From Opitutales bacterium (GTDB lineage: Bacteria; Verrucomicrobiota; Verrucomicrobiia; Opitutales; Opitutaceae), in assembly GCA_018700525.1 (NCBI GenBank), contig JABITN010000141.1, forward strand, positions 1 through 52,970: 52,970 nucleotides of DNA. Direction: 5' to 3'. Below, in pieces: positions 11,648 to 24,867 of this stretch (position 1 is the first letter of the stretch; each line of letters begins with the position of its first letter). The notes beneath the pieces were generated by a model. The model was not told where the DNA came from. It worked only from the letters and a program-made list of their open reading frames with translations, and ran no database searches. The translations under genes and the position numbers were made by a program.

Positions 11648-11788
11648 TATGCCAACGATAGGCATTCATAATCAAGAATGATCTGATAAACTTTATGGCA
11701 ATCACCTGTCCATGTCGCACCCGTAGCGATTTCCCTCTTTGGAATCGAAACGTGGATGCTCCTAATCAATACAAATAAGTCACGATTC

Positions 11789-14095
11789 ATGAAAGAACTA
11801 ACCCTAATAGGCCCAAATATTCAAAAAGAGGATACGAAGGCCAAAAAACTGATTTCCAAGACCCTGAAGGGTCTTGCAGCTCTCGCATTTGCGAGCAGTC
11901 TAGCAACCGTAAGCGCCCAAGACGAGTCAGGAGACGAAACCGTCTATGAGCTCTCCCCATTCGAAGTTAACGAGTCCAACTCGCTAAATTATCTAGCTCA
12001 GGAATCCGTATCGGGGACTCGCATATCAATTCCTCTAACGCGTATTCCACTAAAGATCACTACTCTGACCAAAGATTTGCTTGACGACGTCAATGCGTTT
12101 GGCACTGACGAGGCCATCCAATACGGGGGTGCCGAGCGTTTCCGTTTTCAACAATCCGGTGTGTCCATCCGCGGATTTCGCGCGTCCTTCCAGGTAGACA
12201 ACCTCGATTGGGGTACGGATATAAAGATGGACAACATCATCACCGAACGTATTGACATTGCAAAGGGACCAGCTGGCACAATCTATGGCGTGGGTTCCCC
12301 GGGCGGTGCAATAAATCTCAGTACGAAAAAGACAAGTTTGGAAGAAAGTGGACACATCCGAGCCCTCTACGGAAGCAATGGTTCATACCGGATAGAGGGA
12401 GATGTTACCGGCTCATTCGATGAAGAAAAAAAATGGCGCTATCGGCTCTCTGGCGCGCGCAATAGAGAGGTGACGGACCTACTTTTCGGGGAAATGACCC
12501 TTGATACGCTCATGCCCCAGATCTCCTGGCATCCTTCAGACAAGACTAGTGTCGAGTTCCAGTTGATTTACCAAAATACGCCCGACTGGAATCCTTTTGA
12601 CGAACGCTTTCCGACGATTAGGGGAACACGCCAGCCAGCCAATCAGGATTTAGCTCCCCGCAATGTCGCCGTCGGCTTGGCGCCGGGCGTTCCCGAAAAC
12701 TTCAATGTTCCCGGACCGAACGCTGATCGGGCGGTTAAGACTTGGTGGTCAACGACAACGTTGAAACACCAATTCAACGAGTCCGTGAGCATGAAAGTGG
12801 CCCATCGAAAAACGTGGTTTGATGAAGAACGATGGACCCGTTTCCTGATGGGCGGCCCGAATTATGACGACTCGGGAAATATTACAAATCCCGACATTCG
12901 GATAGGAAACTGGTTTCAGGACAAGTATCGTACAACAGAGTCCATACAGGCCGATTTCAATATTGAGTGGGGAGGGCAAGGCGACATGCATGGCAGCATC
13001 GTAACAGGAGGAAATTACGCCTTGTTTGACCAGGATAATCTAATTTTTTGGGATATTGGGTGCTGCGGACAATCCACACCCCCGAGGGGCAACACTATCA
13101 ATATCGTAAATCCGTCCACGGACCCGAATAACCCAGACTGGGGCTTCTCGACGTTCAAGGAAGATTATGAGAAGAATAACTGGGAGGACCAAATAATACA
13201 CTCCGAGCGAGCCGGGCTCTGGGCGATAAGCAACACGTACTTCGCCGGCGACAGGGGAAATTTCGTCCTCGGCACGAGGCGCTCGTACTCAATAGCAGGT
13301 GAGAACTCTGTCTTACGCGGTACTCGATACGACAACCGAGGTAACCAGACTGACCAATTCGGAGGCAATACGCAAAGCCTTAATACCTACATGGCGGGGG
13401 GCACCTATGAGCTTGTCCGTAAGGAAAACGACTATGTCACCGCTTTTTTCGGCTATACCGAAACTAAGGATTTTAACAGATACCCGTACGAACCGAAGGC
13501 AGGTAGCGGCGTCGAGGGAGGTCTTCGCTTCTCAGGTATGGATCGGAAGTTTGTCGCCTCTGTTTCCTATTTTGATATCGATCAGGAAAATATCCTTCGA
13601 AGCGATCCCAATCTAGGAGGCGAATTAGTCCTCTCCGGAGCAGAATCTTCGAAAGGCCTTGAATTTGAGGCATTCTATTATCCCTTCGATGGAGCCACGC
13701 TCTTTTTCCAGTACGTAGATCAGGACACAGCCATAGTGAGCCATGTGCAGAGTCCCTGGTTGGAGGGCAATCCCGCTGGTGACGGCGGATATGAAACCGC
13801 CTTTAGCGGCGCCTTTACCTACAGGGTGCCAAAGGGAGAACATCAAGGTGCCGGTGTTACTCTGGGATTCATCAATCGTGGCGAAGTGGCTCCCTTTCCC
13901 GACAACAACAACTTGTGGGCATTGCGCCACCCTGGCTATACGGTGTTTAATCTGAATATGTGGTATCCGATTCCGGATACAAATGCCACTGTCGAGTTTT
14001 CCGTAAAGAACCTTACCGATGAGTTCTATTTCAGAGGAGCCATGATACCCGGCCCTCGGCAGCAGCTATACGCAGGCATGCGTTGGAGGTTCTAA
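11789..14095 (+). CDS. TonB-dependent outer-membrane receptor
   Basis: A 768-residue outer-membrane channel energised by TonB. The ATG at 11789 opens with a basic stretch and a hydrophobic signal ending ATVSAQ. An ATG at 11756 would add eleven residues. The mature N-terminus DESGDETVYELSPFEV is the extension I associate with Opitutia receptors. The plug domain follows (ITTLTKDLLDDVNAFG, SIRGFRASFQVDNL, ERIDIAKGPAGTIYGVGSPGGAINL). A beta-barrel fills the remainder and ends YAGMRWRF with a terminal Phe. It lacks an N-terminal carboxypeptidase-like domain and no SusD partner is adjacent. It probably takes up an oligosaccharide or related ligand under control of the divergent AraC regulator. A strong terminator follows. 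Confidence 0.93.
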   Translation: MKELTLIGPNIQKEDTKAKKLISKTLKGLAALAFASSLATVSAQDESGDETVYELSPFEVNESNSLNYLAQESVSGTRISIPLTRIPLKITTLTKDLLDDVNAFGTDEAIQYGGAERFRFQQSGVSIRGFRASFQVDNLDWGTDIKMDNIITERIDIAKGPAGTIYGVGSPGGAINLSTKKTSLEESGHIRALYGSNGSYRIEGDVTGSFDEEKKWRYRLSGARNREVTDLLFGEMTLDTLMPQISWHPSDKTSVEFQLIYQNTPDWNPFDERFPTIRGTRQPANQDLAPRNVAVGLAPGVPENFNVPGPNADRAVKTWWSTTTLKHQFNESVSMKVAHRKTWFDEERWTRFLMGGPNYDDSGNITNPDIRIGNWFQDKYRTTESIQADFNIEWGGQGDMHGSIVTGGNYALFDQDNLIFWDIGCCGQSTPPRGNTINIVNPSTDPNNPDWGFSTFKEDYEKNNWEDQIIHSERAGLWAISNTYFAGDRGNFVLGTRRSYSIAGENSVLRGTRYDNRGNQTDQFGGNTQSLNTYMAGGTYELVRKENDYVTAFFGYTETKDFNRYPYEPKAGSGVEGGLRFSGMDRKFVASVSYFDIDQENILRSDPNLGGELVLSGAESSKGLEFEAFYYPFDGATLFFQYVDQDTAIVSHVQSPWLEGNPAGDGGYETAFSGAFTYRVPKGEHQGAGVTLGFINRGEVAPFPDNNNLWALRHPGYTVFNLNMWYPIPDTNATVEFSVKNLTDEFYFRGAMIPGPRQQLYAGMRWRF

Positions 14096-14143
14096 TTCAT
14101 TCGGGCTAGCCAGCTTTTTAGTAGTAGTGTAGTTAAGTGTAGT

Positions 14144-14179: not shown

Positions 14180-14389
14180 GCCAGGTAATTTCGAACAATC
14201 AATTCGCGCTCCAATCTTGCAGTCGACGTTTTGAACAAAACATGTCTGAATTTATTTTTGTATGCATATTCAGCCTGCAATGTTTGCAGTCGAGTGGTTA
14301 AGCAGTCTGGGCAGACACCCTAGAGCGCATAGGTAATGCATCGCGTAAACTTCCAATTAGTACGAACTTTGTAATCGAAAAAATCGCCG

Positions 14390-15664
14390 GTGATTAAATA
14401 TTATATAATCCCCCTTCTTCTATTTTCAATCCTACCCTTAACGGCAAAAGAGATTGAATCGCCTAACGTAATACTGATATTTACAGACGATCAGGGTTAC
14501 AATGACCTTGGTTGCTATGGCTCAAAGACTATCAAAACGCCTAATCTGGACAAGATGGCAAACGAGGGCATCCGTTTCACGGATTTTTATGTAGGTTCCA
14601 GTTTTTGTTCTCCCTCAAGGGCGGCTTTGTTAACCGGTTGCTACCCTGGCAGAATTGGATTTGGACCCGGAGTGCTTCGTCCTGACGCGGACTATGGCCT
14701 GGCCAAAGATGAGTTCACTATGGCGGAAATGTTTAAGTCGAGAGGCTATGCGACAAAATGCATAGGGAAGTGGCATATTGGCTTTAAGAAACCATTTCTT
14801 CCTTTAGCTCAAGGATTCGATGAGTACTTTGGAATCCTTCACAATATGGACGCAAGGGAAGTGGATGATTTTGACGGAGTCATGCCATTGTATAGAAATG
14901 AGAAAATCATCAAAGAACTGGATACACCAGCAGAACTGACCGAGCTGTACACAAAAGAGGCCATCGAGTTCATTTCCAAGAACAAGAAGAAACCGTTCTT
15001 CCTGTACCTTCCTCACACCATGGCGCACAAGCCATTGGCTGTGACCAAACGATTTGAAGGTAAAAGCGAAGGCGGACTCTATGGCGATGTGTCCGAATGC
15101 CTTGACTGGAGCACCGGCGAAATCATCCGAGCGCTAAAGGAACACAAACTGGATAAAAACACCATTGTGCTGTATACCTCGGACAATGGTGGATATAATA
15201 ATAACAATGCTCCATTGAGAGGAGGGAAAGGAAGCAGCTGGGAAGGAGGCATGCGAGTACCTGCTATATTATGGGGTCCTGGTTTAATACCTTCGGGAAA
15301 AGTGGTAGAAGATATTGCCAGCACCATCGATCTGATGCCTACCTTTGCCAGCTGGCTCGATGTCGCCCTACCCAATTCGATTGATGGACAGGATATCTCA
15401 GATCTATTAACCGGAAAAGAAAATGCCGGCCGGGAATATTTTCATTATTTCGAAGGAATCATAGGCACTGGCATTCGAGACAAACGATGGAAGCTGCATA
15501 AAAACATCCATGGAGATTTCTTACTGTACGATCTTGAAAATGACATCGGGGAGAAAAAAGACGTCCTGTTGGAGAATAAGGAAGTAGCAAAACGACTCAT
15601 TAAAAAATTATTGGATTACGAAGCAGAACTAGGCATGAACCGACGGGTGGCTGAAAGATGGTAA
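14390..15664 (+). CDS. Type I (formylglycine) sulfatase
   Basis: A 424-residue exported sulfatase removing sulfate esters, here probably from an algal-type polysaccharide. A signal peptide ends near LTAKE. The metal site FTDDQG holds Asp33/Asp34. The formylglycine motif C-S-P-S-R has Cys73 in SSFCSPSRAALLTG, so it needs a formylglycine-generating enzyme. CIGKWHIG, the YTSDNGG metal motif and WEGGMRVPAILWGPG follow, and the C-terminus has the usual KWKLH and LYDLENDIGEKKDV. Slightly short but apparently complete. The start GTG at 14390 has no strong ribosome site. It begins a small polysaccharide cluster with a chimeric oxidoreductase gene and a GH105 hydrolase. The substrate sugar is unknown. 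Confidence 0.92.
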   Translation: MIKYYIIPLLLFSILPLTAKEIESPNVILIFTDDQGYNDLGCYGSKTIKTPNLDKMANEGIRFTDFYVGSSFCSPSRAALLTGCYPGRIGFGPGVLRPDADYGLAKDEFTMAEMFKSRGYATKCIGKWHIGFKKPFLPLAQGFDEYFGILHNMDAREVDDFDGVMPLYRNEKIIKELDTPAELTELYTKEAIEFISKNKKKPFFLYLPHTMAHKPLAVTKRFEGKSEGGLYGDVSECLDWSTGEIIRALKEHKLDKNTIVLYTSDNGGYNNNNAPLRGGKGSSWEGGMRVPAILWGPGLIPSGKVVEDIASTIDLMPTFASWLDVALPNSIDGQDISDLLTGKENAGREYFHYFEGIIGTGIRDKRWKLHKNIHGDFLLYDLENDIGEKKDVLLENKEVAKRLIKKLLDYEAELGMNRRVAERW

Positions 15665-15708
15665 GAGAGTGTCTAATAAGTCTCAATTAATCCTTCTTAA
15701 GACTCATC

Positions 15709-16776
15709 ATGAATACAACACGTCGTTCTTTTCTTAAAACGTCTGGCTCAGGCCTGGCAGCTATCCTGGCAACGTCTACCGCTCCATCAATGCTCCGCGG
15801 CGCTCACCATGCGTCGCAAAAGAAGCTGGGGCTCGCAATTGTTGGTTTAGGCGGCTACGCCACCAGATGCATCGCCCCCGAGATGGCTTCCACAACCAAC
15901 GTACGGGTCGCCGGGGTGGTCACCGGCAGTCCAGCCACCAAGGGCAAGGCCTGGGCGAAACAGTACGGTTTTGATGAGGATGCCATCTACACTTACGACA
16001 CCATCGAGAAGATCGCAAATGATGATCGGATCGATCTCGTCCACATTGCCTTGCCAAACTCGATGCACGCCGAATTCGCAATACGTGCCGCCAAGGCCGG
16101 AAAGCACGTGATGGTCGAAAAGCCCATGGCTACATCCAGCAAGGATTGCCAAGCTATGATCGACGCAGCGAAAAAGGCGGGCGTTCTGCTCGGAGTCAAC
16201 TACCGGCTCCACTGGGAGTCTCACCATGTCAAAGCAACCGAGCTGCTGGCTAGTGGCGCCCGGATAAATGCTCACGAGGTCCAAAGCCAGCTACGCGGAT
16301 CCAACACCAAGTCTTTCGAGCGCGCGAAAGAGTGGAGCGAAGTAGAGATCACATTTAGTTCCATGGAACGCACCGCACTGACGATTAACTGTCTTTTCGG
16401 AGGCGGGGGTAGAGCAACCGGAACCGCCTGGTGGGACGACGTGGCCCTTCACGAAGTCGAATACGAAACCACCATCGTAGAACCGGAACTTACCGAGGGA
16501 GATACCGCTCGTGGAAAGGAAATTTTCCTCACTCACCCGATCGCCGCCTGCAATCGTTGTCATGTCCTCGATGGAATAGGGGGACCCATCGGTCCCGCTC
16601 TTGACGGCATCGCCACCCGGAAGGGCGAAGAATATATACTGGAAAGCCTCGTAGAACCACAGGCCGCCATCGCCGAAGGATACCAGTCCGAGGTCTCCCC
16701 CATGCCTCCCATGGGTGTACTACTCAATCAGCAGGAAATGCGAGATATCATGAGCTACCTGACGACCCTGAAATAA
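15709..16776 (+). CDS. Chimeric protein: Gfo/Idh/MocA N-terminal half joined to a cytochrome c tail
   Basis: The 355-residue frame is open throughout but joins two families. Residues 1-30 are a twin-arginine signal (TRRSFLK). Residues about 38-180 are the NAD-binding half of a Gfo/Idh/MocA oxidoreductase (AIVGLGGYA, HIALPNSMHAEFAIRAAKAGKHVMVEKPMA, GVNYRLHWESHHVKATELL). From about residue 185 the text changes to the tail of a PVC-type heme protein. This comprises a carbohydrate-binding-like end (LTINCLFGGGG, TGTAWWDDVALHEV), then GKEIFLTHPIAACNRCH with heme motif CNRCH at Cys281, and SPMPPMGVLLNQQEMRDIMSYL. The substrate-binding half of the oxidoreductase is missing. The likely origin is an in-frame deletion between two neighbouring genes, and oxidoreductase activity is doubtful. 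Confidence 0.8.
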   Translation: MNTTRRSFLKTSGSGLAAILATSTAPSMLRGAHHASQKKLGLAIVGLGGYATRCIAPEMASTTNVRVAGVVTGSPATKGKAWAKQYGFDEDAIYTYDTIEKIANDDRIDLVHIALPNSMHAEFAIRAAKAGKHVMVEKPMATSSKDCQAMIDAAKKAGVLLGVNYRLHWESHHVKATELLASGARINAHEVQSQLRGSNTKSFERAKEWSEVEITFSSMERTALTINCLFGGGGRATGTAWWDDVALHEVEYETTIVEPELTEGDTARGKEIFLTHPIAACNRCHVLDGIGGPIGPALDGIATRKGEEYILESLVEPQAAIAEGYQSEVSPMPPMGVLLNQQEMRDIMSYLTTLK

Positions 16777-16941
16777 TAATATAATGAAAGGTAATTTCAT
16801 ACAACAAATTGCGACCCAATGCGATTCAATAGTATCAAGTTTCGCATTCAATAGTATTAAATCGAAAGGTTGGGGTCTGCGTAGCGGGATTTGCATGGGC
16901 AAACCTAATATCATACAGATAAAAACTAAATTTTTAAAACC

Positions 16942-18111
16942 ATGAAAACAACCGCTATCCTATCCCTTTTTCTGATTTTCTTAAATTCGTGTACTACTTC
17001 TGAAAACATATTCGAAAAAACAACCATCAAAGGGCTCGCCGATAGAGTGCGGAATTATAGAAATAAGCAATTGAATGATCCACCGCCCTACAACTGGGTA
17101 ACTGGAACCTACTACACGGGGTTGGTGGCGATGTACGAAACCACTTCGGATGAGGAGTATTTGAACCAATGCTTGAAGTGGGGCAAGTCATGCCATTGGG
17201 AAATTCCCGACAAGACAGAGCAAGAGTGGGGCAGTGAGTTTTATTCGCTCGTCTGTGGACAGATCTGGTATGCCTGTTATCAGGCAGTACACGATGAATC
17301 CATGTTATCGCCGACATTCGGCTATCTGGAAAATCCAAATAGGCTAAATCCCATCTCCGCTCCATCCGAATGGTATTTGGAAAACTGCGGATTGCGGTTT
17401 GTTGACGGTCTCTTCACTTCACCCCCCTTGTTTGCGATGTTGTACCAGCTTACCGGGGAGGAGAAATACGTCCGCTGGATGGATGCTTGTTTCTGGGATA
17501 CCTCCGAACCCCTGTATGACGAGGAAGAGGGGCTGTTTTATCGGGACGTTACTTACAGAAAAGGGTATCACAATAATTTCAAAGATGGATCCGATCCGGC
17601 CTCTGGCAGAATCAAAGGCTCCCATGAGAAACAAACTTCAAGGAATGGAAAGAAAGTGTTCTGGTCACGTGGAAATGGATGGGTTTTTGGTGGGCTGGTT
17701 AGGATTCTCACATACCTGCCAAAGGATCATTCTAGTTACGAACGATATAAGGCATTATATGTGCAAATGGCTAGTACCTTGAAAGCTTGCCAGCAAGCAG
17801 ACGGGTTTTGGAGACCGAACCTTGCGGATCCGTTGGATTATGATATGAACGAAAGCAGTGGAACGGCCTTTTTTACTTACGGAATCGCGTGGGGAATCAA
17901 CAACGGTATCCTTCCAGGTGAAAATTATCTTCCGATCGTAAGGAAGGGCTGGTCTAGCCTCGTTTCTGTTGTCGATGATAAAGGTGAGGTACAGTGGGGA
18001 CAACGCCCCGGCACCGAGCCCGCTTCGGTTGTTCAAGAAGATTCAACGACATATGGCTCAGGTCTCTTTTTGCTTGCTGCGAGTGAAGTCTACAAACTGG
18101 AGATTGAATAG
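16942..18111 (+). CDS. GH105/GH88-type unsaturated glycuronyl hydrolase, lipoprotein
   Basis: A 389-residue enzyme predicted to remove a 4,5-unsaturated uronic acid from oligosaccharides made by polysaccharide lyases. It has an alpha6/alpha6-barrel style sequence: WVTGTYYTGLVAMYE, the FVDGLFTSPPLFAMLY block that contains the family's catalytic-type Asp, and the hallmark FWSRGNGWVFGGLVRIL and STTYGSGLFLLAASE. The N-terminus is a lipoprotein signal with LNSC, so it is probably membrane anchored outside the cytoplasm. Neighbouring sulfatase genes suggest a sulfated, uronate-containing polymer such as an ulvan-like or rhamnogalacturonan-like glycan. The exact sugar is inference. The ATG at 16942 gives a clean signal peptide. 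Confidence 0.88.
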   Translation: MKTTAILSLFLIFLNSCTTSENIFEKTTIKGLADRVRNYRNKQLNDPPPYNWVTGTYYTGLVAMYETTSDEEYLNQCLKWGKSCHWEIPDKTEQEWGSEFYSLVCGQIWYACYQAVHDESMLSPTFGYLENPNRLNPISAPSEWYLENCGLRFVDGLFTSPPLFAMLYQLTGEEKYVRWMDACFWDTSEPLYDEEEGLFYRDVTYRKGYHNNFKDGSDPASGRIKGSHEKQTSRNGKKVFWSRGNGWVFGGLVRILTYLPKDHSSYERYKALYVQMASTLKACQQADGFWRPNLADPLDYDMNESSGTAFFTYGIAWGINNGILPGENYLPIVRKGWSSLVSVVDDKGEVQWGQRPGTEPASVVQEDSTTYGSGLFLLAASEVYKLEIE

Positions 18112-18230
18112 TGATCAAAGTGGATAACTTGTCTGCGCAGTACTACTTCAACTGCTATTGCTCTTATACAATGTTGAAAGAAGCCCTTTTTTCACAAACA
18201 CTTCTTGCTGGATAGCATAGTTTAGCGCGA

Positions 18231-18518
18231 TCAGAAGGGGTCGATCTCGTGCCTTACCTTACAGGAAAGCGTTCCGGCAACCCGCACGAGACTTTGTTCT
18301 GGCGCCAGGGTGGTAGAGCGGGCTTGTGTCACGGCGATTTGAAGTTGGTCCGCATGGGCGGGCGAAAGGATGTTGGCAATGCGAAGTGGGAACTCTACGA
18401 TCTTTCGAAGGATATTTCGGAGGAGACCAACCTGGCGAAAGCCAATCCCGAGCGCCTCGCCGAACTCGTCGCCATCTGGGAAAAGATGAACGGCGAAATG
18501 CGCGAACCGATGTTTTAG
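18231..18518 (+). pseudogene. C-terminal fragment of a sulfatase
   Basis: About 95 codons carry only the last part of a type I sulfatase: EGVDLVPYLTGK, HETLFWRQGGRAGLCHGDLKLVR, WELYDLSKDISEETNLAKANPERLAELVAIWEKMNGEM. The catalytic N-terminal domain with the formylglycine motif is absent, and upstream sequence does not continue the family. A GTG at 18249 could start translation, but a functional enzyme is impossible. It is a decay product, like the chimeric gene 1.5 kb upstream. The region 18112-18230 shows no other feature. Confidence 0.85.
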
Positions 18519-20271: not shown

Positions 20272-21434
20272 AAGCTATGATTAATTTTAATGTACCTTCG
20301 ACTCTGATCGTCGGTGGCGGCGCCAGCGGCGAAATCGGGAATCAGCTTCAACGTATTCGATGCAAACATGCGCTTATCGTAACGGATGCCTACATGCTCG
20401 AGTGTGGAATCGTCGATCGAATAGCGGGATATATAAAGGAAAAGGGCATATCGGTCAGCGTCTTCAGCGATGTCGTTCCGGATCCTACGGATAAGAATGT
20501 ATACGACGGCCTGGATAAATACAAAACGGTCGGCGCGGATGCGATTGTGGGCCTAGGGGGCGGTAGTCCCATGGATACCGCCAAAGCCATCGCGATCCTG
20601 GCGAATAATCCGCCACCCATTTCCTTGTACGCGGGCCTCCATAAAGTGGCCAATGCCGGCGCTCCGTTGGTTCTTATTCCCACGACGGCGGGGACAGGCA
20701 GCGAGGTGACTAAGGTCACTGTGATTACGGATACGGAGAGAGATGTTAAGATGATGATGCTCGATGTCTCCTTGCTCGCGCAGATCGCGTTGGTGGATTA
20801 CGAGCTGACGATGAGCATGCCTGCGACGCTTACCGCCCATGTCGGGATGGATACGTTTACGCATGGTCTTGAAGCCTACGTTTCTCAAAAGGCCAATCCC
20901 ATCAGCGATCCGATAGCCTTGAGTTGCATGAAGCTGGTGGCGGATAACATCTGCACTGCCTTCAATGAGCCTGATAATGCAAAGGCCCGTGAGGCCATGA
21001 TGCTGGCCGCTTGCCAAGGAGGTATGGCCTTTTCAAATAGCAGTGTCTGTTTGGTCCACGGAATGAGTAGGCCGATTGGCGCGAACTTTCACATTCCGCA
21101 CGGATTATCCAATTCAGTTCTACTGTACGATATCACGAAGTACTCGATAAATGGAAACCTCGAGCGCTACGCGACGATAGCGCGGACCATTGGCGCTGCT
21201 GATGAAGGCGATTCGGATAAGGATGCATCGGAAGCCTTGCCGGCTTACATCGAATCGCTCAACCAGCGGCTAAATATCCCTCGCCTTCGGAACCTGCTTA
21301 ACAATGACAAGGAGCTCTACGAGGGTAGGTTCGATTCCATGGCCCAAGCCGCCCTTGATTCCGGAAGCCCGCAGAACAATCCAGTGGTTCCCCTGCATTC
21401 GGAGATCGTCGAGTTGTATCAAGCCGCCTGGTAA
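20265..21434 (+). CDS. Iron-containing alcohol dehydrogenase
   Basis: A 389-residue group III (Fe-dependent) alcohol dehydrogenase. It shows the NAD site GGGSPMDTAKAIAILANN, TTAGTGSEVTKVTVI, and the metal-binding GMDTFTHGLEAYVS and CLVHGMSRPIGANFHIPHG histidines. Length is normal. ATG 20265 overlaps the preceding dehydrogenase; ATG 20277 is an alternative start. Paired with an acylating semialdehyde dehydrogenase it probably oxidises a 3-hydroxyacid or short alcohol. Fe-ADH plus MMSDH is the arrangement known for dddB-dddC in DMSP degradation and elsewhere for 3-hydroxypropionate. The substrate is inferred from neighbours only. Confidence 0.93.
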   Translation: MVKAMINFNVPSTLIVGGGASGEIGNQLQRIRCKHALIVTDAYMLECGIVDRIAGYIKEKGISVSVFSDVVPDPTDKNVYDGLDKYKTVGADAIVGLGGGSPMDTAKAIAILANNPPPISLYAGLHKVANAGAPLVLIPTTAGTGSEVTKVTVITDTERDVKMMMLDVSLLAQIALVDYELTMSMPATLTAHVGMDTFTHGLEAYVSQKANPISDPIALSCMKLVADNICTAFNEPDNAKAREAMMLAACQGGMAFSNSSVCLVHGMSRPIGANFHIPHGLSNSVLLYDITKYSINGNLERYATIARTIGAADEGDSDKDASEALPAYIESLNQRLNIPRLRNLLNNDKELYEGRFDSMAQAALDSGSPQNNPVVPLHSEIVELYQAAW

Positions 21435-21534
21435 GGATAATGGAAATCCGAATATCAAATTGAGAAGAGCGTGTTTATCGCTAATTTATAAAAGCAGGTA
21501 CGAGAAAAAATCCCAATTGGAGAAAGTCGCAGTT

Positions 21535-24500
21535 ATGAAAAGATATCTTATTCCCATCACCCTGTTATTGTTTTGGATATTGCAGGCAGGCGCTGTAGAA
21601 AATAGTGAGTTGCAAACGAGACTTGGTGAGGATTCCTCTGATTTGAATTGGCAGGTGAGGATCCTTGAGCAATCGATACGGAATCTCGATAAAAAATATC
21701 CCAATAGCTATGATGGCGAGCGCTATTTGAGGCGACTGAATAAACTCAAAAGGGACGCGCTGGGAGGATACGACATTGCGAGGAAGGATCTGGATGAATT
21801 GAAAAAGCAGGCGCTGCTCGCCCATCCAATGCTGAAGGATGCCTCTATTCTTGGGGTCAAGATGGCGATAATCAAGGGAACCCCCGGAAGCCCTACGCCA
21901 TTCTATGAGGCTATGAACGGCATTGGCCTGCCCGCGCCCCATCTTTCCATTAGCAGTGTCCCTCAGACGGCTCTCGCGGGTGGAATCGTGAAGCTGAGTT
22001 CTGTCGGGTCTACCCTGGAGGAGGAATTGGTTGTTAAGCCCAGAAAAGGTGAACCGGTAGCGGGGCTGGACTTGAACTGGAATGGCGATCGCCTGCTTTT
22101 CGCGAGGCGGGCTAATGAATCCTGGAAGATATACGAAGTCAACGTGGATGGTTCGAACCTGCGACAAGTAAGCCAGCACGACGATGACATCAGCTCTCAC
22201 GAGCCTTGCTATCTGCCCAATGGCGATATCGTTTTTGCGTCGGATGCCAATACTCAGGGAGTTCCCTGCTGGCACGGCATTCCCAATAAAGTGGCCAACC
22301 TCTATACCATGGACAGGGATGGCAAGGGCGTGCGTCAGCTTTGCTATGATCAGGGCCACAACGCGCAGCCGACTGTCCTCAAGGACGGCAGAGTCGTTTT
22401 CAATCGCTGGGATTACACCGGGATGAATCGCGTATTCAATCGTGTATCCATGGAAATGCGCCCGGACGGAACGGGGCAGAAGGCGTTTTTCGGGACGAAT
22501 ACTTGGTATCCGAATGGCGTTTACGGACATAAGGAGCTTCCCGGTTCAAGGAAGCTTGTCTGCATTGTGGGTGGTTATCATGATGGGAATCGCTGCGGGT
22601 ATCTTGGAATTCTCGATCCTTCGAAAGGAGACCGGGGAGACTCCCCGCTGGTCAAGATCATTACCGGCACTCAATTAGGTCCCAAGAGAATTATCGAGGA
22701 CAAATTGACTCAATCGGTTGTGCCTTTGTTTACCGATCCGGATCCGGTTGACGATGAATATTTCCTCGTGAGCGTAATGATGGAAAAGGGTTCCTACGAG
22801 TTTGGAATATACCTCGCGGATGTATTCGGAAATCTTGTTTTGATCAAGAACGATGACGACTATGCTTATCTTAAGCCGGCTCTTTTGAGGAAGCGTGAAA
22901 CCCCGAAGGTTATTCCGAGTCTGGTTAATCTGGAGAAGGATGATGCCACCGTCTATATACAGGATGTCTATATGGGCCCCGGCCTTAAAGAGGTGGAAAG
23001 AGGCGTCATTAAAAAGGTACGCGTCGTCGGCTATGATTACGGATATCCCACGCTTGCCGGAGTGGACAAGATCGGGATGACGGGACCGTGGGACGTTATG
23101 CAAATGATTGGCGAAGCGAAGGTGCATGCCGATGGATCCGCCTTTTTCAAGATTCCGGCCGATACGCCGGTTGCGTTTCAATTGATTGACGAAGAGGGGC
23201 AGGCCGTGCAGCTTATGCGTACTTGGACAACGGCCATGCCGGGCGAACGGATGTCTTGCGTGGGGTGTCACGAAGAAAGCGATACGGCTCCGCTCGCGAT
23301 CCCTACAATGGCGCTTCGGGACGTGCCGCAGGATTTGTATGAGTGGTTTGGTCCAGCGCGTGGTTTCGACTTCGCTCGAGAGATTCAACCTGTCCTTAAT
23401 AAGAATTGCGTTAGTTGCCACGATGGGGGAAATGACGCGATCGATCTGAGGCCAAAGGATCAGGTTCCTGGATACGTTGGGACGGCTCCTTCGTGGTTCG
23501 ATTATACACGCTTGAACCAAAAGTACAAAGATCTCTTCGATGGAAAGCCGATGGTGCCCTATACTCCGGCTTACGAGGCGCTGGTTCCTTATATCCGTCG
23601 CGTAGGCGCGGGCGATGATGTTTCCCTATTGGTTCCGGGCGAATATAAGGCGAACACCAGTCCGCTTATTCAGATCTTGAAAAAGGGTCACCACGGCCTT
23701 GAATTAAGCGCGGAGGATTTGGAACGCTTCTATGCGTGGATCGATCTCAACGGCCCTAGTCACGGCACTTGGAAGGAAGTCTATGGAGTGACGCCTGCGG
23801 ACGGCATGTATGAACTGAGACGGAAATACAAAGATCTCTATGGAAGCAAGCAGGTGAATTTGGATACGCCGGAAAAGCTGGCCTACGATGAAACTCCTAT
23901 TGCCGTGAAGAAGCCGAAGGGAGCAGCTCCTGTAAGCGTGAAGGGCTGGCCGTTCGATGCTTCGTCGCTTAAGCTAAAAACGATGGAGTTGGACATCGGG
24001 GATGGGGAGACAATTACCCTGAGCCGATTGCCGGCTTCCGCATTCGTGATGGGAGATGAGAAGGGTTTGCCCGACGAATTCCCTCTGTCAAAAGTGGATA
24101 TTAGAAAGACTTACTGGATGTCGGAAACGGAAATCAGCAACGAGCAATTCAGAATCTTCAAGGCGGAGCATGACAGTCGCTATTATAGCAAACGGCATGT
24201 CGAACGAACCGATAACCAAGGAATCCCTATGGACCACGATGACCAGCCTGCTATAAGAGTGTCGTGGAACGATGCTATGGATTTCTGTAAGTGGCTGTCC
24301 GCTAAAACGGGTATGAAAGTGAACCTGCCTACTGAAGCCCAATGGGAATTCGCCTGCCGAGCGGGTTCGGATGAAGCGTTTTCATTTGGCGCTCTCGATG
24401 GAGATTATTCGAAATACGCGAATGTTGCCGATAAGACGTTTGCGACGGGTGGAATTACAGGGAGAAGCGATCGGGGTCTCTTCGTGATTGCGGCTGATCT

Positions 24501-24867
24501 TGAATCCCTGATTTCGGAAGGGGTCGATCTTGCGGATAGGACGTTCGATGATAAGACGATCGTCACCGCTGCAGTCGATCAATTTAGGCCGAATGCGTTT
24601 GGCTTGAAGAATATGCATGGAAATGTGGCGGAATGGACACGATCGCTTTACAAAGCTTATCCGTATGATGCGGATGACGGTCGCAATGACGAGAGCGCAA
24701 TCGGCGATCGAGTCGTGCGTGGCGGCTCCTTCTTTGACCCGCCTCAGCGCAGTCGTTCCGCTTTTCGCCTTGCTTATCCTGCCTGGCAGGGCGTCCATAA
24801 CGTTGGATTTAGAATCGTGATTGAAGGCGGTTCGCCGCCCTTATTGAGCATGAATGAACATGAGTAG
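21535..24867 (+). CDS. Exported multidomain protein: PD40 propeller, two heme c sites, C-terminal SUMF1-like domain
   Basis: A 1,110-residue protein starting at ATG 21535 with signal peptide ending LQAGAVE. Order of parts: a charged helical segment (residues 30-105); a TolB/PD40-type propeller resembling hydrazine-synthase-alpha-related proteins (GLDLNWNGDRLLFARR, EVNVDGSNLRQVS, LPNGDIVFASDA, DGRVVFNRWDYTG); heme motifs CVGCH at Cys575 and CVSCH at Cys625; and a SUMF1/FGE-fold domain from about 836 (FVMGDEKG, LPTEAQWEFACRAGS, NAFGLKNMHGNVAEWTRS, RVVRGGSFFD, NVGFRIVIE). The cysteines needed by true formylglycine-generating enzymes near the RGGS motif are absent, so that activity is unlikely. 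It overlaps the next cytochrome gene by 14 bp. Probably a periplasmic redox protein; reaction unknown. Confidence 0.85.
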   Translation: MKRYLIPITLLLFWILQAGAVENSELQTRLGEDSSDLNWQVRILEQSIRNLDKKYPNSYDGERYLRRLNKLKRDALGGYDIARKDLDELKKQALLAHPMLKDASILGVKMAIIKGTPGSPTPFYEAMNGIGLPAPHLSISSVPQTALAGGIVKLSSVGSTLEEELVVKPRKGEPVAGLDLNWNGDRLLFARRANESWKIYEVNVDGSNLRQVSQHDDDISSHEPCYLPNGDIVFASDANTQGVPCWHGIPNKVANLYTMDRDGKGVRQLCYDQGHNAQPTVLKDGRVVFNRWDYTGMNRVFNRVSMEMRPDGTGQKAFFGTNTWYPNGVYGHKELPGSRKLVCIVGGYHDGNRCGYLGILDPSKGDRGDSPLVKIITGTQLGPKRIIEDKLTQSVVPLFTDPDPVDDEYFLVSVMMEKGSYEFGIYLADVFGNLVLIKNDDDYAYLKPALLRKRETPKVIPSLVNLEKDDATVYIQDVYMGPGLKEVERGVIKKVRVVGYDYGYPTLAGVDKIGMTGPWDVMQMIGEAKVHADGSAFFKIPADTPVAFQLIDEEGQAVQLMRTWTTAMPGERMSCVGCHEESDTAPLAIPTMALRDVPQDLYEWFGPARGFDFAREIQPVLNKNCVSCHDGGNDAIDLRPKDQVPGYVGTAPSWFDYTRLNQKYKDLFDGKPMVPYTPAYEALVPYIRRVGAGDDVSLLVPGEYKANTSPLIQILKKGHHGLELSAEDLERFYAWIDLNGPSHGTWKEVYGVTPADGMYELRRKYKDLYGSKQVNLDTPEKLAYDETPIAVKKPKGAAPVSVKGWPFDASSLKLKTMELDIGDGETITLSRLPASAFVMGDEKGLPDEFPLSKVDIRKTYWMSETEISNEQFRIFKAEHDSRYYSKRHVERTDNQGIPMDHDDQPAIRVSWNDAMDFCKWLSAKTGMKVNLPTEAQWEFACRAGSDEAFSFGALDGDYSKYANVADKTFATGGITGRSDRGLFVIAADLESLISEGVDLADRTFDDKTIVTAAVDQFRPNAFGLKNMHGNVAEWTRSLYKAYPYDADDGRNDESAIGDRVVRGGSFFDPPQRSRSAFRLAYPAWQGVHNVGFRIVIEGGSPPLLSMNEHE

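Follow-up and report, generated by a model that had tools for sequence, protein, structure and literature searches.

A single open reading frame of 355 codons (P0001, 355 aa, no stop in its translation), lying in the window, i.e. the whole 52,970-nucleotide stretch of Opitutales bacterium DNA that was analysed, joins the front of a Gfo/Idh oxidoreductase gene to the end of a PVC-type heme gene, and is probably a young chimeric gene remnant left by illegitimate recombination, open by chance and not selected as a fusion. Residues 1-184 comprise a Tat-type leader and the NAD-binding half of a Gfo/Idh oxidoreductase, and residues 185-355 the end of a ThuA/PVC-type heme protein, consisting of half a CBM-like sandwich and a complete CxxCH cytochrome c domain. 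This in-frame pairing of head and tail had been proposed from the letters of the DNA without database searches (hereafter the sequence-only reading) and is borne out, with both parents now located apart from one another in relatives. Features of the region are collected in Table 1.

Profile searches showed the domain at each end of the chimera to be intact. The GFO_IDH_MocA family (PF01408) matched residues 42-165 (E 3.7e-26, 92.6 bits against a Pfam cut-off of 24) over positions 3-120 of a 120-position profile, indicating a complete Rossmann domain, and Cytochrom_C (PF00034) matched residues 267-355 (E 3.2e-10, 41.6 bits against a cut-off of 21.3) over positions 2-90 of 90, likewise complete. 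Heme and methionine motifs are retained, the CNRCH named in the sequence-only reading being present at residues 281-285. The twin-arginine signal that it described as kept is a candidate one: an RR pair at residues 5-6 is read directly in TTRRSFLK, and the Tat-signal family PF10518 scores a weak 16.8 bits against a cut-off of 22.7. There was no Pfam match in P0001 to the alpha/beta substrate domain of the Gfo C-terminus (PF22725/PF02894), no profile match to the TIGR02604/DUF7133 domain, and no Pfam family match between the Rossmann and cytochrome c domains. TIGR02603 scored 56.1 bits, under its cut-off of 68.15, as it did in the parent of the tail (47.7). The foreign part of P0001 is more than a cytochrome, residues 185 to about 252 being the second half of a CBM-like sandwich. 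A search of the + strand from 15500 to 17000 found no promoter-like site, a result that says little for this phylum.

Table 1. Positions of the chimeric frame, its parts and its neighbours in the window.
Feature	Position	Strand	Details
TonB-dependent receptor, left neighbour	11756..14095	+	Pfam Plug; 3' part matches G003:C82
SMP30/gluconolactonase leader remnant	14245..14394	+	50 codons, one internal stop, no SGL domain
Sulfatase	14390..15664	+	Pfam Sulfatase; start abuts SMP30 remnant; own contig C187 has a copy at 85% identity
Dispersed-repeat end	15662..15682	+	Between sulfatase stop and Gfo leader
Gfo/Idh leader and 5' part	15687..16254	+	Tat-type signal and NAD-binding domain, residues 1-182; identity to G003, Pfam
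Chimeric ORF (P0001)	15709..16776	+	Single open frame
Junction	16243..16262 (about)	+	Placed by codon-level comparison against two Gfo relatives and four PVC parents
Second half of CBM-like sandwich	16261..16464	+	4 of 8 predicted strands; alignment, predicted structure, fold comparison
Block shared with G006 (tail and GH88 gene)	16288..18120	+	96.7% identical to G006:C379 over 1833 bases
Complete cytochrome c domain	16507..16773	+	PF00034; CNRCH at 16549-16563, SPMPPMG close to end
GH88-family hydrolase in shared block	16942..18111	+	PF07470, E 2.3e-62; 97.9% DNA identity to G006
Sulfatase 3' remnant	18234..18518	+	About 95 codons; 5'-truncated, about 380 front codons missing

Comparison of the parent genes in relatives, which the sequence-only reading had suggested, located an intact Gfo/Idh gene in genome G003, and the PVC gene in genome G006 and in four Verrucomicrobiales/Akkermansiaceae MAGs; G003 and G006 belong to the genus of the window's own genome. 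The nearest intact relative of the head (G003 contig C82, JAPKDW010000045.1) encodes 389 aa, is 88% identical in amino acids over residues 1-184, and carries both C-terminal Gfo domains (PF22725 and PF02894, at 69.6 and 42.4 bits); a paralogue of 398 aa on contig C232 of the window's own genome is 75% identical over residues 3-183, with the same domains at 63.3 and 53.7 bits, and could cover the original oxidoreductase role. An SMP30/gluconolactonase gene stands directly before Gfo/Idh in G003, on C232 and in genome G112, and the SGL domain was confirmed in all three of these intact SMP30 genes. P0001 resembles this SMP30-linked subfamily of Tat-leader Gfo/Idh/MocA oxidoreductases throughout residues 1-184, in its Tat-type motif, its Rossmann domain and its EKP motif, but lacks the PF22725 and PF02894 domains found in the subfamily. 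Two other frames in the searches were set aside: an apparent second truncated Gfo gene (G112:C54, a 257-codon frame) is merely cut by the contig end, and a 713-codon Gfo frame in G016, considered as a heme-domain fusion, reads on inspection as having an overlong frame start.

The tail matches the C-terminus of long proteins with the order ThuA, DUF7133/TIGR02604, CBM-like sandwich and cytochrome c. Residues 185-355 are held in common with these PVC-type heme-binding CxxCH proteins (TIGR02604; loci L067, L068 and L062, and G006:C644 with C379), with tail identity of 65-70% in L067, L068 and L070 and of 54% over a longer stretch in L069, these four loci being those of the Verrucomicrobiales/Akkermansiaceae MAGs. 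The parents have ThuA, DUF7133/TIGR02604 (238 bits for TIGR02604 in L067) and the first half of the CBM-like sandwich, whereas P0001 has none of these, and it is outside the TIGR02604 family of its tail parent because the defining domain is gone. The parent is a single frame of 1724 aa in L067 (3432-8606) and of 1577 aa in L068 (3846-8579), and has a 1093-aa form in L062 (from genome G053). In L067 a sulfatase stands in front of ThuA, DUF7133/TIGR02604, a sub-threshold CBM_4_9 and cytochrome c, and L068 is alike by inspection. In freshwater Verrucomicrobia, planctomycete-type cytochrome genes are described in many domain combinations and often near sulfatase genes (PMC5615132). The gene in G006 is split over two contigs, C644 ending and C379 starting within it, and by comparison with L067 these contigs would be neighbours about 14 codons apart. 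Among the matches listed, the best in the window's own genome to the ThuA/DUF7133 region reached 41%, against 76% in G006. A second deletion inside the cytochrome domain, considered on account of a split match on contig C267, was rejected, the copies in G006 and L067-L070 being equally short.

The two parental sequences meet precisely. Likeness to the intact 389-aa Gfo parent ends at residue 184, and from Gly183-Ala184 onward the tail is in register with the PVC parents with no residues added; residues 183-184 are Gly-Ala in the Gfo gene of G003 and in each of the four PVC parents (Gly-Gln in the C232 paralogue), and at this Gly-Ala the switch from Gfo to PVC neither gains nor loses a base relative to the parents' frames. 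The junction thus placed lies inside the range of 16,240-16,300 given by the sequence-only reading. Tail matches beginning at residue 156 had suggested that the sequence of the tail parent continued into the Gfo segment; extension before about residue 183 is weak, and a start at 156 was ruled out by the codon alignment, which puts the switch at residues 183-185.

A join created in assembly or library preparation, and absent from the cell, was considered and appears highly unlikely. The source genome is a draft (268 contigs, 4.8 Mb, 96.5% complete) of which the window is one whole contig, no second genome has the join, and the G006 assembly breaks at the same place as the junction region, a coincidence that also counts against the remnant reading. 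Against an artefact, the window has no second copy of any word of at least 12 bases from 16200-16330, and the longest words that Gfo and PVC relatives have in common at any position measure 10-14 bases, so that a k-mer assembler would have had little to join on, with the available relatives standing in here for the true parents. Several similar small scars on the same contig also argue against it.

These scars flank the chimera on both sides. Within 4.3 kb, the other scars are the SMP30 piece, the repeat end and the truncated sulfatase, and since the chimera is one of several such pieces, a chance origin is more likely. To the left, the window at 13148-14135, the end of the TonB receptor gene, is 90.2% identical in DNA to G003:C82. 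The SMP30 remnant sits between this receptor and the sulfatase, is cut at the sulfatase start, and matches the G003 gene at 54% over its residues 47-96 (tblastn, E 2e-11) with one stop. The sulfatase itself begins with a GTG that the SMP30 remnant seemingly supplies. The repeat end that follows looks IS- or MITE-like; at E <= 0.01 it has one match in the window's own genome, 16 in G006 and six in G004, and it is present in seven of the 11 genomes of the genus. One of the G006 copies is adjoined by an inverted partner (L079, G006:C631). On the right, the sulfatase 3' remnant is 80-83% identical in DNA to the 3' ends of intact sulfatase genes of 513 and 475 aa, and the gap of 113 bases that separates it from the shared block (18121-18233) matched none of the six loci compared.

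The block common to the window and G006 bears on how the two parents were brought together. It ends nine bases past the GH88 stop; its left edge coincides with the start of the G006 contig, and the true left end may lie further out. Elsewhere on the contig, between 33000 and 52900, six matched stretches to G006 are 68-79% identical and eight to G003 are 74-84% identical. Given identity of 96.7% in the block against 68-79% to G006 in the other stretches compared, the tail and GH88 gene look to have been recently common to the two lineages, apparently by transfer. At silent sites the window and G006 have diverged by 0.029 in GH88, 0.030 in the heme part and 0.167 in the half sandwich. The tail has 28 differences from G006, ten of them crowded into 31 bases (16348-16378), a cluster that hints at gene conversion or error-prone repair. 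The history of the head is less simple. The TonB end adjacent to the Gfo piece is 90% identical to G003, unlike the Gfo piece itself, in which dS is about 2.3 and dN 0.09, most silent sites being different; with such a silent-site distance despite the TonB end, it is not certain that the Gfo piece is an old resident gene, and the piece from 15687 to 18120 may have arrived already fused. In G003, the TonB receptor ends 9.8 kb upstream of the Gfo gene.

The sequence-only reading had named deletion between neighbouring genes as the simple explanation. On such an account an ancestral cluster with Gfo/Idh upstream of the PVC heme gene would have lost several kilobases internally, fusing the two genes. 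This is not borne out, the two parents never being side by side in the loci read, and it is now judged unlikely. In L067 and L068 the PVC gene does have a Gfo/Idh gene as its immediate upstream neighbour, and in G006:C644 a Gfo/Idh with a Tat signal lies upstream of it. These Gfo/Idh genes belong, however, to other subfamilies: those of L067 and L068 match P0001 at 32-33% along 122-125 residues, and that of G006 at 30% along 158. The close relative of the head in G003 has SMP30 before it and, after it, another long ORF, not this PVC gene. The identity of the block to G006 points instead to transfer. On the sequences compared, transfer followed by illegitimate joining fits better than loss between neighbours, because the parents are apart in the loci read and the tail lies at the edge of the 96.7% block.

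What the sequence shows is a Gfo/Idh gene broken at about codon 184 and followed in frame by the last 171 codons of the ThuA/PVC-type heme gene. Under this preferred account of transfer and illegitimate joining, the 3' end of the PVC gene and GH88 would have arrived on one segment by horizontal transfer. End joining, or microhomology at the few bases that the sequences have in common, would then have attached this segment to the Gfo gene, in a single illegitimate event or several, close to a repeat. That the frame is still open would follow from the one-in-three odds of an in-frame join and from the short time available since then for breaking it. Illegitimate recombination and horizontal transfer leave chimeric or truncated ORFs. 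Compared with such relics, P0001 has known parents, a junction of microhomology scale, adjoining relics and a single host genome, and differs from relic ORFs in general in that its frame happens to remain open.

The open frame in register, the complete Rossmann and cytochrome c domains and the retained motifs are points that count against a remnant. However, the tail has a single open frame among three, the true one, so a random join would be open about one time in three. Moreover, about 0.55 stop-making changes are expected in 1065 bases under neutral drift since the split from G006 (taking half of the 0.03 silent divergence to lie on the window line, with no insertions or deletions), and the open frame is therefore no evidence of selection. 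Since that split, the tail has accumulated six amino acid changes on the window line and five on the G006 line, with six assigned to neither, and one and five silent changes respectively, with two assigned to neither; one against five silent changes beside six against five amino acid changes hints weakly that constraint on the window tail has relaxed. The corresponding amino acid changes in GH88 are three, four and ten (window, G006 and neither line), and in the head, compared with G003 and with C232 as outgroup, four on the window line, 11 on the G003 line and seven on neither. Against G006, dN/dS is 0.63 for the tail, 1.1 for its cytochrome part (nine changes), 0.47 for the half sandwich and 0.69 for GH88. 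These ratios and per-line counts are too small in number to show or exclude constraint on the fusion, and there is no clear decay in the change counts of head or tail.

Structure models placed the join in the midst of a domain. Eight strands are predicted for the parent sandwich, with the join at the beginning of the fifth. Solved structures similar to this sandwich include a hyaluronan-binding module and carbohydrate-binding modules from families 16, 4 and 22, as well as phage fibres and further sandwich proteins that are unrelated. The chimera as modelled has pLDDT under 50 at residues 159-259 and no predicted helix or strand at residues 168-265, and in the model of the parent fragment the matching residues 111-160 have pLDDT of 59-64 with strands formed (46 and 35 for residues 91-110). 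Both models are of low confidence, built on eight sequences for the chimera and five for the parent fragment, with mean pLDDT of 48.0 and 54.3. As modelled, the half sandwich is unlikely to fold.

The sequence-only reading had also raised a new exported heme protein. In a functional fusion of this kind, electrons would pass from the Rossmann oxidoreductase half, exported by Tat, to the heme domain of the same protein. The open frame, the Tat-type motif, the complete Pfam matches at both ends, the unchanged heme motif and the few changes in the head are in favour of such a fusion; set against these are the loss of the substrate/dimer domains, the half sandwich in mid-chain, the restriction to one genome among those searched and the relics on both sides. 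In addition, a Tat signal sits badly with c-type apocytochromes, whose export runs through Sec in the unfolded state. With two domains cut, no other searched genome carrying the fusion and an open frame that needs no selection, the claim is unsupported, and a functional fusion is very improbable. That P0001 yields an expressed, exported heme protein would, from what its sequence offers, be just as improbable. Slighter still is the chance of a gene being born, in which the freshly welded Tat-exported NAD-binding and cytochrome c domains would act as a heme-loaded short-range electron carrier unlike either parent. The product of the remnant, if made, would have a Tat-type signal, a Rossmann domain, half a sandwich and a cytochrome c, and most likely no function as a fusion.

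The same fusion was sought in other genomes, another comparison suggested by the sequence-only reading, and a single match extending across both halves was found in the window's own genome only: one of 57, one of 11, one of 252 (the family) and one of 387 genomes in overlapping sets, in every case that same genome. Nor was it present at any of seven loci in a scan of GTDB contigs, which may omit the window's own genome. The conservation in more than one genome expected of a functional fusion is thus not seen in the genomes searched. The searches of 57, 252 and 387 genomes scored no more than 36, 8 and 5 candidates in each genome, with E limits set at 1e-30, 1e-40 and 1e-45, and at these settings a similar but distant fusion may have escaped notice. 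Among the open-licence papers searched, none was found that describes such a fusion.

Read as a relic, P0001 is a caution against taking domain fusions in draft genomes for new enzymes. It would also provide a roughly dated case (silent divergence of about 0.03 from G006 in GH88 and the heme domain) in which transfer into a sulfatase-rich cluster led to an in-frame chimera, and, if expressed, a rare view of a redox fusion at its first stage. Further along the window, at 21304-24867, lies a frame of 1187 aa with matches to the middle domain of hydrazine synthase alpha and to a sulfatase-modifying-factor domain, together with a weak heme-domain match.
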